A stretch of DNA of 64,000 nucleotides from assembly GCA_017411835.1 (NCBI GenBank), contig JAFQPG010000002.1, positions 62,001 through 126,000 on the forward strand, read 5' to 3'. The notes under the pieces were generated by a model, which was not told the origin of the DNA, made no database searches, and was given only the letters and a program-made list of their open reading frames with translations. The stretch comes from Ruminococcus sp. (lineage in GTDB: Bacteria; Bacillota; Clostridia; Oscillospirales; Acutalibacteraceae). Shown here piece after piece: positions 14,739 through 40,050 of this stretch (its first letter is position 1; every line of letters starts with the position of its first letter). Position numbers and translations under genes: made by a program.

Positions 14739-14750
14739 CAAAACGTTCAA

Positions 14751-14922
14751 CCAAAATAGCACTCCACCCAATATTTGGGTGACAGTGTAATACATATTCT
14801 GCATCACACCAGCCCGATTTGCTCGGAAATCAAACCAGGCTTCGGCGGTGATTCCTTTCATACACGAATATAATTCCGTACCTTGTGTGCATTACTGATA
14901 AGCACCGCGCCTCTATTTTTGC
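14751..14922 (-). ncRNA. Lysine riboswitch (L box)
   Basis: Read on the minus strand the segment opens with AAAATAGAGGCGCGG and shows the core elements of lysine riboswitches in order: AGAGG-CGCG after P1, CACCGCCGAAG, a GGGCTGGTG segment, ACTGTCAC and GGTGGAGTGCTA before the P1 3' strand CTATTTT. P1 pairs AAAATAG with CTATTTT. About 170 nucleotides is the usual aptamer size. It sits in the leader of the NhaC-type transporter and is followed by an intrinsic terminator, predicting repression by lysine. Confidence 0.92.
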
Positions 14923-14932
14923 TTATGTAACG

Positions 14933-35177: not shown

Positions 35178-35618
35178 ATGAATCAGAAAGTAAGAATTTT
35201 TGAAGAACGAATTTCAGCAGAAGAATATATAGACTTTTTGAAAAGAACGGACTTGGGCTCCCAATATCCAAAAGAGCGATTCGAAAATCGAATTGCCAAA
35301 CTTGTCAAAACCGTTTCTATCAGTCTTGTCGCACGAAATGAATGCGGTACGGTTGTTGGAGTTTTGTTTGGCTTGACCGACTTTGCATATTGGCTTTATG
35401 TAACAGATTTGGGAGTTGACAGAACCTACACGGGACAGGGTATCGGCAGACAGCTAATGAAAACAGCCCATGAAATTGCGGGCGGCGAAAAAGATATTGC
35501 GGTTTATTTGATAGCCAACGAAAATGCAATTCCATTCTACGAAAAGCTGGGCATGAAGAAATCTGTGGATGTCATGCAGTATAACAAAATTGAGTGGACA
35601 GAATTTACGGTAGTATAA
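35178..35618 (+). CDS. GNAT-family N-acetyltransferase
   Basis: A 146-residue acetyltransferase of standard single-domain length. The acetyl-CoA-binding loop is VDRTYTGQGIGRQLM (R/Q-x-x-G-x-G/A type) near residue 85, and FYEKLGMKKS near residue 117 is the usual C-terminal motif. The N-terminal 40 residues (EERISAEEYIDFLKRTDLGSQYPKERF) would form the acceptor site. The acceptor, whether a drug, peptide or metabolite, is unknown. A GGGGAGATAGT ribosome binding region precedes the ATG. It lies between repeat copies A and B with its own promoter. Confidence 0.9.
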   Translation: MNQKVRIFEERISAEEYIDFLKRTDLGSQYPKERFENRIAKLVKTVSISLVARNECGTVVGVLFGLTDFAYWLYVTDLGVDRTYTGQGIGRQLMKTAHEIAGGEKDIAVYLIANENAIPFYEKLGMKKSVDVMQYNKIEWTEFTVV

Positions 35619-35651
35619 CAAATTCCAATTTGCCGAGCTGAAACAAAAATT

Positions 35652-35757
35652 CAGCCGTTTAACGATACCCTATAATTTAACGATAGGTTTATTGTTTTTA
35701 CCGGCTTAATTAAATAACCACATAAAAAATCACAACAAAAAAGCGTTGCACTGCAAA
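35652..35757 (+). repeat. Bipartite intergenic repeat, copy B (hairpin deleted)
   Basis: Two TTTAACGATA units at 35658-35667 and 35676-35685, then a region aligning with copy C up to AAGCGTTGC (35741-35749). The hairpin is cut short: the left arm runs straight into ACTGCAA, as if the loop and part of the right arm had been deleted. It therefore lacks a functional terminator. Confidence 0.85.
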
Positions 35758-35860
35758 TAATTAACACGGAATTTGAATTGTGTATCTATTCACTTTGCGC
35801 TTAAACAATAATTATGATACAATTATTTCTGTGACAAAACTCATCTTTATGGAGGTTATG

Positions 35861-36334
35861 ATGGATATTTTGATTAGGTTTGCCGAAAAAGAAGAACTCA
35901 GAAAAGTTAATATGCTTCGTAAACAAGTAAATGATCTACATGTAAATGGAAGACCTGACATATTCAGAGAAGGATTCTGCACTCAAATGCAAGATCACAT
36001 TTACACTATGTATGAATCAGAAAATTCCGATATCATTGTGGCTGTAAGCGGTGATGATATCTTAGGGTTCGCTACTGTAGAATACATACTAAAGCCATTA
36101 TCTCCATACAGTCTCGAGAGGAAGATATATCAGATTTGCGAATTCGGTGTAGATAAAAAGCACCATCGTAAAGGTATAGCTACAAAACTTGTGGATTTTA
36201 TAAAACAAGATGCTGCGTCAAAGGGCTATAGTAGAATTGAACTCGATGTATGGGAATTTAACGAAACTGCTATTGAATTTTACAACGCAATCGGATTTAA
36301 ACCTTATCGCAGGTATATGGAACTACCAATTTGA
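35861..36334 (+). CDS. GNAT-family N-acetyltransferase
   Basis: A 157-residue protein with the GNAT acetyl-CoA loop VDKKHHRKGIATKLVDF near residue 103 and the C-terminal block FYNAIGFKPYRRYMEL typical of ribosomal-protein or small-molecule acetyltransferases. GGAGG at 35851-35855 points to ATG 35861; longer in-frame starts back to 35780 run through the promoter region. The acceptor is unknown. The gene lies between repeat copies B and C and its upstream region (GATACAAT, then GACAAAAC) resembles the other promoters of this block. Confidence 0.88.
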   Translation: MDILIRFAEKEELRKVNMLRKQVNDLHVNGRPDIFREGFCTQMQDHIYTMYESENSDIIVAVSGDDILGFATVEYILKPLSPYSLERKIYQICEFGVDKKHHRKGIATKLVDFIKQDAASKGYSRIELDVWEFNETAIEFYNAIGFKPYRRYMELPI

Positions 36335-36399
36335 ATAATCATCCCAAACGTGAATTTCCGTTATTAATCACTTTACACTAAACAGTTTTTATTCCTTTT

Positions 36400-36564
36400 C
36401 GATTGTTTAACGATAACCCTATAATTTAACGATAGGTTTATGGTTTTCACCGGCATCATTACAAAATCACATATAAAATCACAACAAAAAAGCGTTGCGG
36501 ATGAGGAGTAGCATCAATATATGTCCTCAAACTGCAACGCTTGTTTTTTATTCTCTGCTTATTT
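36400..36564 (+). repeat. Bipartite intergenic repeat, copy C
   Basis: Two TTTAACGATA units (36406-36415, 36425-36434) and a full hairpin: AAGCGTTGC (36490-36498) with GCAACGCTT (36534-36542). The inner stem is GAGGA/TCCTC (36503-36507, 36524-36528), different in sequence from copy A but again complementary. The right 31 bases to 36564 are identical to the same part of copy D at 40129-40159. Confidence 0.9.
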
Positions 36565-36588
36565 CAAAGCGGAGGAGCAACAGATAAC

Positions 36589-36645
36589 AAGTTTTATATT
36601 GCTATTATTTTATTTGATGTGATATAATTAACGCTATAAACTTGA
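36589..36645 (+). promoter_or_regulatory. Promoter of the double-GNAT gene, near-duplicate of the XRE promoter
   Basis: TTGCTA (36599-36604), 18-bp spacer, TATAAT (36623-36628), then CGCTATAAACTTGAG. It aligns over about 55 bases with 33489-33542, including identical -35 and -10 boxes and spacing. Confidence 0.75.
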
Positions 36646-36663
36646 GTTTTCGGAGGATGACCG

Positions 36664-37509
36664 ATGTTAAAAATAACAGACAAAGTTGATTTAAAAGATA
36701 TTTATGATTTTCAGTTGAGCTTCAAAACACCATACTTTTTTAGTGTAAATTTTGAAGAGTGGAAGAAGTCATTTGAGCGTGACATCGACGGCGAAGGTAG
36801 AGAACTATTCAACGAGCTTTTTGTAAAAGCAGTTTATGATAACGATAAACTTGTAGGCTTTGTCCAGTATGGAAAAACTGCCTTTGGCTTTGATAATAAA
36901 GGCGAGATTTCAGATGAAATTTCGTACCCTGTTATCCGCAACCTGTTTTTCAAAGAAGACCGAGCAGACGCAGGTGAATTGCTGTTAAATGATGCTATGA
37001 AAAACCTTGGTACAGATGAGCGAGTATATGCGTTCTTCCATTACTTTGGTATGAGTTGTTTCGCTCGACACGGCAAGCTCTTTGAAAATCATGCTCATAT
37101 TGATTCTTTGCTTAAAGAAAATGGCTTTGAAGTTGAACATGAAAACGTGTACTACTCATCTGTTTTAGTTGAGAGCGAAAACTCAGATGTAGTAATCAAA
37201 GCTAATGATTTGACTAAAGGCAATCAACAGTATATTGATTTTAAAATCGACGGCAATCAGGTTGGCGGTTGCGAGGTGCATTATCTGAGTGACACAACAG
37301 CATATCTTCGCTGGATTTATGTCAACGGCGATATAGTAGGCAAAGGTATCGGCACAAAATGTATGACTGCGTTAAAGAGCTTTCTTTTTGAAAAAGGTAT
37401 CAGAAGATTTGACACCGACACAGCTATCAACAATACAGTCGCTCAGCACTACTATGAGAAAAACAGTTTTGTTCGTGAGGGTGTTACAAGAAGTTATTTT
37501 AAAATTTGA
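36664..37509 (+). CDS. Tandem GNAT-fold acetyltransferase
   Basis: A 281-residue protein, about twice the length of a single GNAT domain. The first half (residues 1-150) has beta strands such as LFVKAVYDNDKLVGFVQYG but a weak cofactor loop. The second half has a clear acetyl-CoA loop VGKGIGTKCMTALKSF near residue 225 and HYYEKNSFVREGVTRSYF at the end. One active and one degenerate domain is the likely arrangement. CGGAGGA precedes the ATG. It lies after repeat copy C. A hairpin ATTGCAGA/TCTGCAAT (37544-37568) without a T tract follows. The substrate is unknown. Confidence 0.85.
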   Translation: MLKITDKVDLKDIYDFQLSFKTPYFFSVNFEEWKKSFERDIDGEGRELFNELFVKAVYDNDKLVGFVQYGKTAFGFDNKGEISDEISYPVIRNLFFKEDRADAGELLLNDAMKNLGTDERVYAFFHYFGMSCFARHGKLFENHAHIDSLLKENGFEVEHENVYYSSVLVESENSDVVIKANDLTKGNQQYIDFKIDGNQVGGCEVHYLSDTTAYLRWIYVNGDIVGKGIGTKCMTALKSFLFEKGIRRFDTDTAINNTVAQHYYEKNSFVREGVTRSYFKI

Positions 37510-37592: not shown

Positions 37593-37621
37593 TTGACAAA
37601 ATATAATTTTAGTAGTACACT
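37593..37621 (+). promoter_or_regulatory. Promoter of the rsgA-GNAT-GNAT operon leader
   Basis: TTGACA (37593-37598), 17-bp spacer, TACACT (37616-37621). The transcript would carry a leader of about 370 nucleotides before rsgA. Confidence 0.8.
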
Positions 37622-37630
37622 ACGGACAGA

Positions 37631-37675
37631 ATAGTTTGCTTCATTAAATTTAATAGTTTGCTTCAATAAATTTTA
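37631..37675 (+). repeat. Tandem 22-bp duplication in the operon leader
   Basis: AATAGTTTGCTTCATTAAAT and AATAGTTTGCTTCAATAAAT occur back to back in the untranslated leader, just after the transcript start and before the leader-peptide ribosome binding site. Confidence 0.85.
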
Positions 37676-37702
37676 TGGCAAACGAGAAAGGAGAATTTCA
37701 GT

Positions 37703-37732
37703 ATGATTTACAGCGAGGTAATTAACTGCTAA
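37703..37732 (+). CDS. Leader peptide of 9 residues (MIYSEVINC)
   Basis: ATG at 37703 with a very good ribosome binding site (AAAGGAGA, spacer 9) opens a 9-codon reading frame MIYSEVINC ending in TAA. It is followed 9 bases later by the first of three terminator-like hairpins and about 260 bases later by rsgA. This is the layout of ribosome-mediated attenuators of antibiotic-response genes, in which stalling on the leader changes downstream RNA folding. The sequence is not one I recognise. Confidence 0.72.
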   Translation: MIYSEVINC

Positions 37733-37741
37733 CTGAATATT

Positions 37742-37797
37742 GGCACGCTTTTAATAGTTTTGGGACTTCCAAGCCCCTTTATTTGTCGTGCCGTTTT
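37742..37797 (+). terminator. Leader hairpin 1
   Basis: GGCACG (37742-37747) pairs with CGTGCC (37787-37792), with an inner GGG/CCC pairing, followed by GTTTT. The GTGCC of its right arm can also pair with GGCAC at 37833-37837, an alternative that would disrupt both hairpin 1 and hairpin 2. Confidence 0.7.
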
Positions 37798-37833
37798 AAA
37801 GAACCTTTCGTGAATTCTATGACTGACGTTATG

Positions 37834-37860
37834 GCACACTCAAAGGGGTGTGCTTTTTTA
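37834..37860 (+). terminator. Leader hairpin 2 (intrinsic terminator)
   Basis: GCACACT (37834-37840) pairs with GGTGTGC (37847-37853), six-base loop, then six T. It stands upstream of rsgA and would stop transcription before the operon. Confidence 0.8.
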
Positions 37861-37879
37861 TGCCCAAAATTATTTTCAG

Positions 37880-37919
37880 CCGCAGAAATCCCTCAAGGGT
37901 TGCTTTCTGCGGTTTTTTC
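37880..37919 (+). terminator. Leader hairpin 3 (intrinsic terminator)
   Basis: CCGCAGAAA (37880-37888) pairs with TTTCTGCGG (37904-37912), inner CCCT/AGGG, followed by TTTTTT. It is the strongest of the three and lies 75 bases before rsgA. Confidence 0.85.
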
Positions 37920-37994
37920 GTCCATTTTCAGTTAGCAGTAACATTTATAAAATTTATGATTTAAAAGACAGAACTGATTTTGGAGGAATAAAAG

Positions 37995-39032
37995 TTGAAG
38001 ATAAATGATTTTGGATTTAATCCTGATTTGAATCCTAAAAATAAAGGCGGTATACCTGCAAGGATAACCGCAGTACACAAAGGTCGCTTTGGTATTGTGT
38101 CAGATTTTGGCGAGGGCTATGCAAGCCTCAAGTCAAAGGAATATTATTTTAATGGCGAAGATTTTCCCACGGTTGGTGACTTTGTGCTGATAGATTATGT
38201 TGAGAACGGCGACAGCCGAATTACAGCAACACTTAAACGAAAAACCTACTTTTCTCGCCGTGACCCCGATAAAGGCAGAGGAGAGCAGGCTATCGCCGCA
38301 AACTTTGATTACGTTTTTATTATGCAGTCGCTGAATAATGACTTTAATCCAAAGCGGATTGAGCGTTATCTTACTGCTGCTCGTCAATCGGGAGCAGAGC
38401 CTGTAATTATACTTACAAAAGCTGACTTAACGGATGATTACTTGCCATATATTTTAGAAATCAGTCGAGTAGCCGAGGGGGTAGAAACCTACATCGTAAG
38501 TGCCAAGACAGGTATTGGTATTGCCAAACTCTCAAAATATATGCAAAAGGGTAATACCCTTGTTTTCTTAGGCTCATCGGGCGTTGGCAAGTCAAGCTTA
38601 GTGAATACTCTTGCAGGCGAAGAGATTATGGATGTAAATGGTATCCGTGAAGATGACTCAATGGGCAGACACACCACCACTCACAGAGAGCTTATTATGC
38701 TCAAAAATGGCGTGATGATAATTGATACCCCAGGTATGCGTGAGCTTGGTATGTGGGATGTAACTGAAGGTTTATCCGACGCCTTTGCAGATGTTGAAAA
38801 ATTTATAGACAAGTGTAAATTCCGTGACTGCAAACACGAAAACGAGCCAGGTTGTGCTGTGCGTGAGGCCATAGAAAACGGCGAACTTGCCCCTTCCCGT
38901 TTGGAAAGTTACAAAAAGCTTAAAACCGAGGCAAAATTCAGTGATGACGGTTATGAATATAAAAAACAAAAACAACAGTGGGAGAAAGCCCTCAGAATCA
39001 GCGATAAGAAAAAGAGAAAGGAAAGATTTTAA
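37995..39032 (+). CDS. rsgA: RsgA-family circularly permuted ribosome-associated GTPase
   Basis: A 345-residue GTPase with the permuted motif order of RsgA/YjeQ: G4-like ILTKAD near residue 137, then P-loop GSSGVGKSSL near residue 192, TTTHRE, and DTPGMRELG. An N-terminal OB fold precedes it and a C-terminal zinc knuckle (CKFRDCKHENEPGC) follows. RsgA acts in late 30S maturation. The protein is about 45 residues longer than typical Bacillus RsgA. It begins at TTG 37995, eight bases after TGGAGGAA. Its setting, behind an attenuator-like leader and with two GNAT genes, is not that of the housekeeping gene and suggests a stress or drug-response paralogue. Confidence 0.88.
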   Translation: MKINDFGFNPDLNPKNKGGIPARITAVHKGRFGIVSDFGEGYASLKSKEYYFNGEDFPTVGDFVLIDYVENGDSRITATLKRKTYFSRRDPDKGRGEQAIAANFDYVFIMQSLNNDFNPKRIERYLTAARQSGAEPVIILTKADLTDDYLPYILEISRVAEGVETYIVSAKTGIGIAKLSKYMQKGNTLVFLGSSGVGKSSLVNTLAGEEIMDVNGIREDDSMGRHTTTHRELIMLKNGVMIIDTPGMRELGMWDVTEGLSDAFADVEKFIDKCKFRDCKHENEPGCAVREAIENGELAPSRLESYKKLKTEAKFSDDGYEYKKQKQQWEKALRISDKKKRKERF

Positions 39033-39033
39033 A

Positions 39034-39582
39034 ATGAACAGAACAATTAAATCAATGGAAAATAAATATTTGCAGAGTTCTCTTGATATGATAAGGAGAA
39101 CATTTACAAACAGCGAGAGTGCTGAGGATGCACAGATTGTTGTAAATTTGGTTCAGGAAATCAGGTCAATGAAATATTATTTGCCCGAGCTTGAGCTTAT
39201 TATGGTGGATGAAAACGACGAGGTGATAGGCTATTCAATGTTTTCAAGGTTCCACCTTGGTGGTAAGTTTAGGGATGAGCTTCTTATCCTTACTCCTGTG
39301 GCAGTAAAGACAGAATTACAGCGTCAGCACATTTCAAAAGAGATTATCGAGGCAGGCTTTGAAAAAGCAAAGAATATGGGCTTTAAGGTCGTGCTTGTAG
39401 AAGGTAACCCTCAGAATTATTGTAATCGAGGCTTTGTGACCTCTGCAGATTTTGGCATAGTTGCAGGAGAGAGTGTGGGCTTGCCTGCACCTGAGTGCCT
39501 TATGGTAAAAGAACTTGAAAACGGTGCTTTAGAGTGCATTAGCGGTGTCTTAGAGTACACCGAATACAAAAGCCTTAAATAA
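39034..39582 (+). CDS. GNAT-family N-acetyltransferase
   Basis: A 182-residue GNAT protein. ATG 39034 lies one base after the rsgA stop, with GAAAGGAAAG as ribosome binding site inside the rsgA gene; a 49-codon in-frame extension into rsgA is a shadow. The cofactor-binding region is VKTELQRQHISKEIIEAGFEKA near residue 90, with Gln/His instead of the usual Gly pair (Q-R-Q-H-I-S), followed by VLVEGNPQNYCNRGFVTSA. This resembles the YhbS-like N-acetyltransferases. The acceptor is unknown. Translational coupling to rsgA implies joint function. Confidence 0.85.
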   Translation: MNRTIKSMENKYLQSSLDMIRRTFTNSESAEDAQIVVNLVQEIRSMKYYLPELELIMVDENDEVIGYSMFSRFHLGGKFRDELLILTPVAVKTELQRQHISKEIIEAGFEKAKNMGFKVVLVEGNPQNYCNRGFVTSADFGIVAGESVGLPAPECLMVKELENGALECISGVLEYTEYKSLK

Positions 39583-39597
39583 GAAAGGAAAATTAAA

Positions 39598-40050
39598 ATG
39601 AGTGAACTTAAATATATAACATTAAGAGAAAAGCCTGAGCTTATGGAGAATGCCGCTTTGTGGTTTAATAGCAAGTGGGGTGTACCAAAAGAAGCATATC
39701 TTGAGTGTATGGAAAGCTACCTCAGCGGTGAAACTGAGCTTGGTTGGTATCTTTGCTTAGATGGTGATAAGATTGTTGGTGGAATGGGTGTAATTGAAAA
39801 CGACTTTCACGACAGAAAAGACCTGACTCCTAACGTCTGTGCAGTTTACACAGAAGAAAGCTACCGCAAGCAAGGAATTGCAGGCGCGCTACTGAATATG
39901 GTGGTAGATGATCTTAAATCAAAGGGTATCTCGCCTGTTTATTTAGTTACCGACCACACAAGCTTTTATGAGCGTTACGGCTGGGAATTTTTCTGTATGG
40001 CACAGGGCGACGGCGAAGAGGATATGACACGACTCTATATTCACAGATAA
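39598..40050 (+). CDS. GNAT-family N-acetyltransferase
   Basis: A 150-residue GNAT protein starting MSELKYITLREKPELMENAALWF. The acetyl-CoA loop TEESYRKQGIAGALLNMV lies near residue 82 and YLVTDHTSFYERYGWEFFC near residue 118, matching aminoglycoside-like and YhbS-like branches. It is 15 bp after the previous GNAT gene with AAGAAAGGA as ribosome binding site, so rsgA and the two GNAT genes form one operon, ended by the hairpin of repeat copy D. Confidence 0.88.
   Translation: MSELKYITLREKPELMENAALWFNSKWGVPKEAYLECMESYLSGETELGWYLCLDGDKIVGGMGVIENDFHDRKDLTPNVCAVYTEESYRKQGIAGALLNMVVDDLKSKGISPVYLVTDHTSFYERYGWEFFCMAQGDGEEDMTRLYIHR

Follow-up and report, generated by a model that had tools for sequence, protein, structure and literature searches.

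A leader RNA family with a short upstream reading frame ahead of RsgA paralogues and resistance-type genes: a candidate ribosome-sensing attenuator

The leader and the operon behind it

The window analysed here is a 64,000-nucleotide stretch of a Ruminococcus sp. genome, in which a structured leader with a short upstream reading frame (uORF) precedes an rsgA paralogue, named RsgA2, and two GNAT acetyltransferase genes. The features are as follows.

37593..37621, + strand: sigma-70-type promoter, TTGACA-17-TACACT (10/12 match)
37686..37693, + strand: Shine-Dalgarno (SD) sequence GAAAGGAG of the uORF, read from the sequence, with similar SDs in protein-found relatives
37703..37732, + strand: uORF MIYSEVINC-stop, 9 codons, read from the sequence (ATG 37703-37705, stop 37730-37732)
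37742..37792, + strand: hairpin HP1 (GGCACG...CGTGCC), 9 nt past the uORF stop, from sequence and covariation
37803..37812, + strand: anti-SD mimic ACCTTTCGTG of 16S type, complementary to the uORF SD and to the T1 and T2 loops
37817..37834, + strand: hairpin HP2, CTATGAC-TGAC-GTTATGG, whose 3' end is common to the base of T1
37831..37859, + strand: terminator T1 with U-tract, listed by both terminator scans
37880..37918, + strand: terminator T2 with U-tract, listed by the fuller scan and missed by the simpler one
37725..37939, + strand: possible long-range helix between 37725-37737, at the uORF stop, and 37927-37939, immediately ahead of the rsgA SD
37995..39032, + strand: rsgA paralogue (RsgA2), TTG start (TIGR00157, 179.7 bits, cut-off 100)
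39034..39582, + strand: GNAT1 acetyltransferase (PF00583)
39598..40050, + strand: GNAT2 acetyltransferase (PF13527/PF00583)

The original prediction had read a promoter, the 9-codon frame MIYSEVINC with its SD, and hairpins before rsgA, and all of these are in place in the sequence. It also counted three terminator-like hairpins. Only two, T1 and T2 (its second and third), deserve that description, because HP1 lacks a U-tract, has only GTTTT behind it and is listed by neither of the two terminator scans. The anti-SD mimic, HP2 and the membership of the leader in a family had been missed.

With an SD-led short reading frame and an intrinsic terminator ahead of the gene, the locus has the arrangement of a uORF-dependent transcription attenuator. 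In folding stability the 366-nt leader surpasses all of 100 dinucleotide shuffles (z -3.3). GGCAC stands at 37742 and again at 37833, with GTGCC at 37788, and an SD-like GAGGU lies inside the uORF at codons -5/-4 from the stop. Promoter-like sites in this stretch hardly exceed chance (12, against a shuffle mean of 8.9, sd 2.9); a site with a match of at least 10/12 is found upstream of the uORF in 46 of the 78 leaders with enough upstream sequence, compared with 4.6% of mononucleotide shuffles.

A known riboswitch or other Rfam family was ruled out for this leader. The gathering scan of the window reports none there, and at 37600-38000 the only Rfam matches are far below gathering scores. Elsewhere in the window the scan reports only tRNA and a lysine riboswitch (RF00168, 120.7 bits; 14749-14923, - strand).

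RsgA2 and its neighbours

RsgA2 exceeds the curated cut-off of the TIGR00157 model and belongs to the RsgA family, sharing protein family and GTPase domain with RsgA/YjeQ as described in the excerpt of PMC4436671 and in PDB entries 5no2, 7boi and 2ykr. Another rsgA, also a strong match, lies on a different contig of the same genome and groups with the rsgA of relatives, so that the window copy, which stands apart, is the paralogue that it had been called from the start. In a tree of 125 RsgA rows, built by a quick method with long-branch warnings and with some identical rows entered twice, a branch with support 100 splits 26 canonical rows from 99 others, with canonical RsgA and RsgA2 on opposite sides; RsgA2 therefore does not qualify as a canonical orthologue. 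In the same tree a Paenibacillus row (L172) pairs with a row taken as Scatolibacter (support 99), which suggests horizontal transfer.

A protein search of 59 genomes, that of the window included, revealed two close RsgA2 paralogues within the genus, with 80% and 78% (partial) identity. Both carry the same leader, with uORF MIYSEVVLS in L010 and MIVSEVLYR in L012, and in both the rsgA start is placed at the same point. Peptide and hairpins are conserved in relatives, the opposite of what the original prediction had named as evidence against itself. At two more distant paralogues (47-49%; L011, L013) no leader was found. More broadly, RsgA2-type matches occur in 30 of 398 family genomes (E <= 1e-60; 20 of 135 genera) and 59 of 341 class genomes (E <= 1e-70; 42 of 203 genera), the window's own genome being counted both times.

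GNAT1 also follows rsgA2 in L117, L135, L169, L182 and others, and the order rsgA2-GNAT1-GNAT2 recurs in L169 and L182. Three consecutive GNAT genes lie upstream of the leader (window 35178-37509), which together with GNAT1 and GNAT2 makes five GNATs around RsgA2. The third of these upstream genes is also near the leader in L117 and L125. Behind rsgA2 in L010 (about 2429-2865) one finds the beginning of a GNAT1-like gene and, in another frame, the final part of a gene resembling the third upstream GNAT.

RsgA2-like proteins (<60% identity) are present in 15 plasmid and 6 phage records, and three such plasmid stretches (L242-L244) have no leader-model match at E <= 1. On one of them, from a Lysinibacillus plasmid (L244, 2432-4617), an rsgA paralogue is followed by the fosfomycin-resistance gene fosM and then by a HAD hydrolase gene. 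Four relatives of RsgA2 that the leader model does not match at E <= 0.01 (L063, L064, L065, L067) have SD-led frames of five codons (for example MEIVP, METVL and MSVSR), which by eye stand before hairpins and perhaps represent another type of attenuator.

Collection and distribution of the leader family

The leader set comprises 80 non-identical members, reduced by removal of duplicates from 86, of which 24 were found by protein, 59 by scan and 3 by an earlier pattern. For the protein-found group, 34 paralogue loci were inspected, 24 were hand-picked as leaders and 10 (L011, L013, L055, L060, L061, L063-L067) were dropped. The scan pattern joined the uORF SD to a downstream ACCTTTCGTGAAT at a distance of 82-111 nt, and its application to the genome_contigs collection (84,980 species) returned 68 loci. 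A covariance model, R1, matches 61 of these 68 at E <= 1e-6, 43 of the 61 having helped to build it; among the seven loci outside R1 (L119, L144, L146, L150, L157, L160, L180), the only match is that of L180, at E 0.72.

At E <= 0.01, R1 matches 35 of 61 RsgA2 loci, 14 of which had gone into its construction, and leaves 26 without a match. Of the 27 class-level loci, all of them unused in building it, 12 match. Among canonical rsgA loci it matches 0 of 26 at E <= 0.01 (best E 0.28). Counted by genome, with the window's own included each time, matches occur in 17 of 180 in the family (E <= 0.01) and 12 of 221 in the class (E <= 0.001). The window's own genome holds one clear copy and two further, weak model matches (E 0.8 and 5.2). 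Of 394 genomes of the order, a strict DNA pattern found this one alone. The anti-SD pattern hit 14 genomes out of 398 in the family; we read 11 of these hits as leaders and consider the other 3 (L109, L111, L114) chance matches. Its reversed control matched in six genomes.

Carriage of the leader on sequenced plasmids or phages was ruled out by searches with leader DNA taken from the window and from L132, which returned nothing from plasmids and no more than short, weak matches from phages; viral contigs yielded 0 leader matches.

Conserved elements of the leader

Across the family the uORF is short, with 9-11 codons in 77 of 80 leaders, a figure that is partly built in for the pattern loci, where the frame was picked from candidates of 9-13 codons with ATG starts taking precedence. 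At codon -5 from the stop, 63 of the 80 have GAG, 10 ATG, 4 AAG and 0 GAA, and codon -4 is GTA or GTG in 70. Where Glu occupies position -5 and a long open reading frame is available for comparison, the codon is GAG in 62 of 62 leaders versus 40% GAG among the Glu codons of those frames (a count that ignores kinship), so the constraint on codon -5 probably acts on the RNA. GAGGU is presumably complementary to the 3' end of 16S rRNA, as is GGUGAU in leaders of the ATG class, and if a ribosome stopped at the uORF stop codon, either would be at the usual SD distance from it.

HP1 begins 9-12 nt past the stop in 54 of the 58 leaders that make up alignment A1, the alignment used for column covariation tests. 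Changes on both sides of the helix are seen among these 58 at 6/6 outer pairs of HP1, 5/6 pairs of HP2 and 4/5 of T1. The covariation score of the whole structure is 0.218, which 0 of 500 shuffles reach, versus 0.166 in shuffles. Slid controls pair at most 55.3% of cells versus 88.7% observed, and give 17-28 double-changed cells versus 49; they also reach 5-15 double-changed pairs versus the 15 observed, so this last count alone proves little. An unbiased mutual-information scan did not single out the helices, its signal being dominated by background.

The anti-SD element is complementary to the uORF SD with a mean of -10.9 kcal/mol, compared with -5.0 in shuffles (28 clusters). A swap test found no pair-specific covariation between the two strings, which form a helix that hardly varies. 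This near-invariance in A1 is partly built in, since the pattern search fixed both strings; the 24 protein-found leaders are free of that bias. Complementarity of the anti-SD to the T2 loops reaches -5.6 to -5.3 versus about -2.8, with no significant result in the swap test (p 0.14-0.28). The terminators themselves vary: T2 was not seen in L012 and L118, and L040, L041, L044 and L059 have only a T2-type terminator. The long-range helix of the stop region is possible in 10 of 10 leaders of the window's clade (-10.2 to -20.5 kcal/mol) and is not exclusive to it, as 14 other leaders span -4.8 to -21.1.

A proposed antiterminator switch

The original prediction had GTGCC of hairpin 1 (37788) leave its partner at 37742 for GGCAC at 37833, thereby breaking both hairpin 1 and hairpin 2. 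In the window the RNA does fold in this way when computed: removing the RNA up to stop+13, which is a generous ribosome footprint, cuts the probability of T1 from 0.93 to 0.03. Across the family the outcome is mixed. In an RNAfold equilibrium test on the 68 leaders for which both an anti-SD and a terminator were found, only 3 of 68 lose T1 when the RNA is occluded to stop+13 (the window, its close relative L125, and L126), and T1 is predicted to be stable in most states of most leaders. With occlusion to stop+30 its probability falls below 0.1 in 13 of 68, although L059 is below this value in every state. Among the close relatives, L010, L117, L135 and L162 need this longer occlusion for the exchange, and in L169 the exchange does not appear under occlusion in RNAfold.

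Comparative evidence for this pairing is likewise divided. A column test on the 5-bp antiterminator core found 83.4% of cells paired (shuffles 80.4%) and 12 double-changed cells versus 2.7. A duplex test of native against swapped HP1:T1 partners was negative (native -8.80, swapped -8.95, 1288/2000). A control, in which the 24 nt that follow the stop were set against T1, gave a lower p (82/2000). The swap test thus found no pair-specific covariation of the HP1 3' arm with the T1 5' arm.

Genes behind the leader

First genes were typed by tblastn with a reference set in which single kinds represent themselves. Behind 61 R1-matching loci these are RsgA2 in 42 cases, one APH-superfamily kinase family in 10, and nine single kinds. 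The singles include kinases (L121, L126), APH-type kinases (L130, L174), a GNAT related to GNAT1 of the window and present without rsgA (L162), a Tet-protection-like GTPase from Acetatifactor muris (L166), an ABC exporter (L179), a SAM methyltransferase (L156) and a Vps62-like protein (L145). At L161, rsgA2 comes first after the leader and an APH-type kinase second. A search for the same leader ahead of other rsgA or resistance genes had been suggested originally, and it has turned up RsgA2, APH-type kinases and other resistance-type genes.

The assignments differ in firmness. For the L130 kinase the best solved relative is an amicoumacin kinase (E 3.9e-29). With NF012153, the model for Tet protection, L166 reaches 650.6 bits, compared with 329.7 for the best elongation factor G model; it falls below the curated NF012153 cut-off of 775 and is not assigned to the Tet ribosomal protection proteins. 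The L174 kinase has only weak PDB matches, and a PDB sequence search at E <= 0.01 gave none for the L115 kinase family. L121, for which neither Pfam nor NCBIfam offers a match and PDB offers none at E <= 0.1, is labelled a kinase by eye only. Further searches contribute four loci, labelled by reading of the sequences: L231 with an open frame that fuses APH and GNAT, L241 with an ABC ATPase, L217 with a methyltransferase, and L228, where a GNAT is joined to a serine-hydrolase-like part. Inspection of the uORF covered the first two of these. Some cargo is not resistance-like, namely the Vps62-like protein and, again by reading, an AAA ATPase and a CD3324-like protein.

Judged by their sequences, the genes behind the leader would often serve in resistance. 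We take the drug targets connected with the Tet-protection-like protein and the amicoumacin-kinase homologue to lie on the small ribosomal subunit. Together with RsgA2, these gene kinds may point to the small subunit, a tentative idea given that two of the three are single cases.

Interpretation

On the observed anatomy of the leader, its conservation and the genes behind it, we favour a ribosome-sensing transcription attenuator of resistance-type genes, with a probability of roughly 0.66. This preserves much of the original prediction of a ribosome-stalling attenuator of resistance, since peptide and hairpins are conserved and the genes are often of resistance type; its exchange between hairpins 1 and 2 is not fully supported. 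The general scheme, in which a ribosome on the uORF controls T1 and T2, is likely. We infer that stalling would be the signal and that the inducers would be translation inhibitors, most likely of the small subunit; the exact antiterminator may be the one described below, and the leader is perhaps an attenuator for small-subunit drugs.

When ribosomes are healthy, the 9-codon uORF would be read quickly and HP1 would form 9 nt past the stop. The anti-SD mimic could then close over the vacated uORF SD, and T1, followed by T2, would end transcription. Some drugs might hold ribosomes at the start codon, or a ribosome could be held at the stop with GAGGU at SD spacing. In either event the SD would be occupied and HP1 blocked or delayed. 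The HP1 3' arm together with HP2 could then compete for the 5' arm of T1, which would allow rsgA2-GNAT-GNAT to be transcribed.

Other explanations must be weighed against this proposal. The leader could be linked to translation without sensing drugs, as a general gauge of how fast initiation proceeds or how many ribosomes are available, by which a ribosome-assembly GTPase is tuned. RsgA2, the commonest first gene, would be its primary client, in keeping with the action of the RsgA family in 30S assembly (per the excerpt of PMC4436671), and the complementarity of SD and anti-SD would report SD occupancy. We nevertheless consider this unlikely, given that APH-type kinases, a Tet-protection-like protein, a GNAT and an exporter also stand behind this leader, while the model matches none of the 26 canonical rsgA loci at E <= 0.01. 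It is also quite improbable that the uORF senses amino-acid supply through a shortage of charged tRNA. Many uORFs do contain two Val codons, and the model match at L226 lies upstream of a valyl-tRNA synthetase-like gene. However, by reading, that gene begins several hundred nucleotides past the leader, with promoter-like sequence between, and the first genes of the family are not biosynthetic. By eye, none of the 80 uORF peptides has a run of any codon, and an attenuator of the trp type was rejected for this reason. The L226 leader itself is a variant with a VKWxCVSCVR-type frame, nearly alike in a second genome of the genus (L053), where it stands before rsgA2.

A constitutive leader whose hairpins merely insulate the operon or protect its RNA would agree with the predicted stability of T1 in most leaders. 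Such a role would hardly account for the fixed spacing and conserved codons of the uORF, or for the reuse of the leader ahead of unrelated genes, and we give it very little credence.

Several described systems resemble the proposed ribosome-sensing attenuator in part. The excerpt of PMC12121999 reports that ribosomes stalled on the uORF of the E. coli toiL-topAI leader remodel its RNA in response to several drug classes, with tetracycline and retapamulin acting at the start codon, a precedent for ribosomes parked on a uORF by drugs. Both leaders have a short uORF whose occupation by stalled ribosomes remodels the RNA (here as a proposal). However, toiL governs translation and Rho-dependent termination of a toxin-antitoxin operon, whereas the present leader has intrinsic terminators, an anti-SD mimic and other genes behind it. 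The excerpts on vmlR, cplR and msrD (PMC9226507, PMC10201436, PMC10314930; vmlR and cplR also in PMC12121999) likewise describe antibiotic-resistance factors under uORF control, by transcription attenuation for vmlR. Those are ABCF factors, whereas RsgA2, APH-type kinases, GNAT and Tet-protection-like proteins follow the present leader, a distinction made by the genes behind and not by leader sequence. For RsgA2 itself, HflXr offers a precedent as a homologue of a housekeeping ribosome-associated GTPase in antibiotic resistance (excerpt of PMC6310831). HflXr is related to a ribosome-splitting factor, whereas RsgA2 is of the RsgA family and its resistance role is putative. No leader of this kind, and no RsgA paralogue behind one, appeared in the titles and opening lines of abstracts among the open-licence papers listed, although an earlier description is possible.

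A bolder extension, which we regard as possible rather than probable, is that of a regulon spanning the Bacillota. One leader would read the occupancy of its own SD through a copy of the 16S anti-SD and be induced by small-subunit antibiotics. RsgA2, its main output, would then represent a new type of resistance factor: a GTPase that binds the 30S subunit and either clears small subunits of bound drug or protects them, much as Tet(M) does for tetracycline. If true, one short RNA signature would mark as yet unrecognised resistance genes in Bacillota of gut, rumen and soil, so that a scan could reveal new factors with no need to guess from protein families. It would also allow RsgA2-type assembly-GTPase paralogues to be tested directly as protectors of the small subunit from drugs, and the sensing of SD occupancy by RNA through an anti-SD mimic to be tested in the same way.

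In two cases the leader occurs in more than one copy. At L143, tandem model matches (116-263 and 466-627) lie ahead of a single rsgA2. One genome (G867) bears three leaders, which precede the APH-GNAT fusion frame (L231), an RsgA2 gene (L239) and the ABC ATPase gene (L241).
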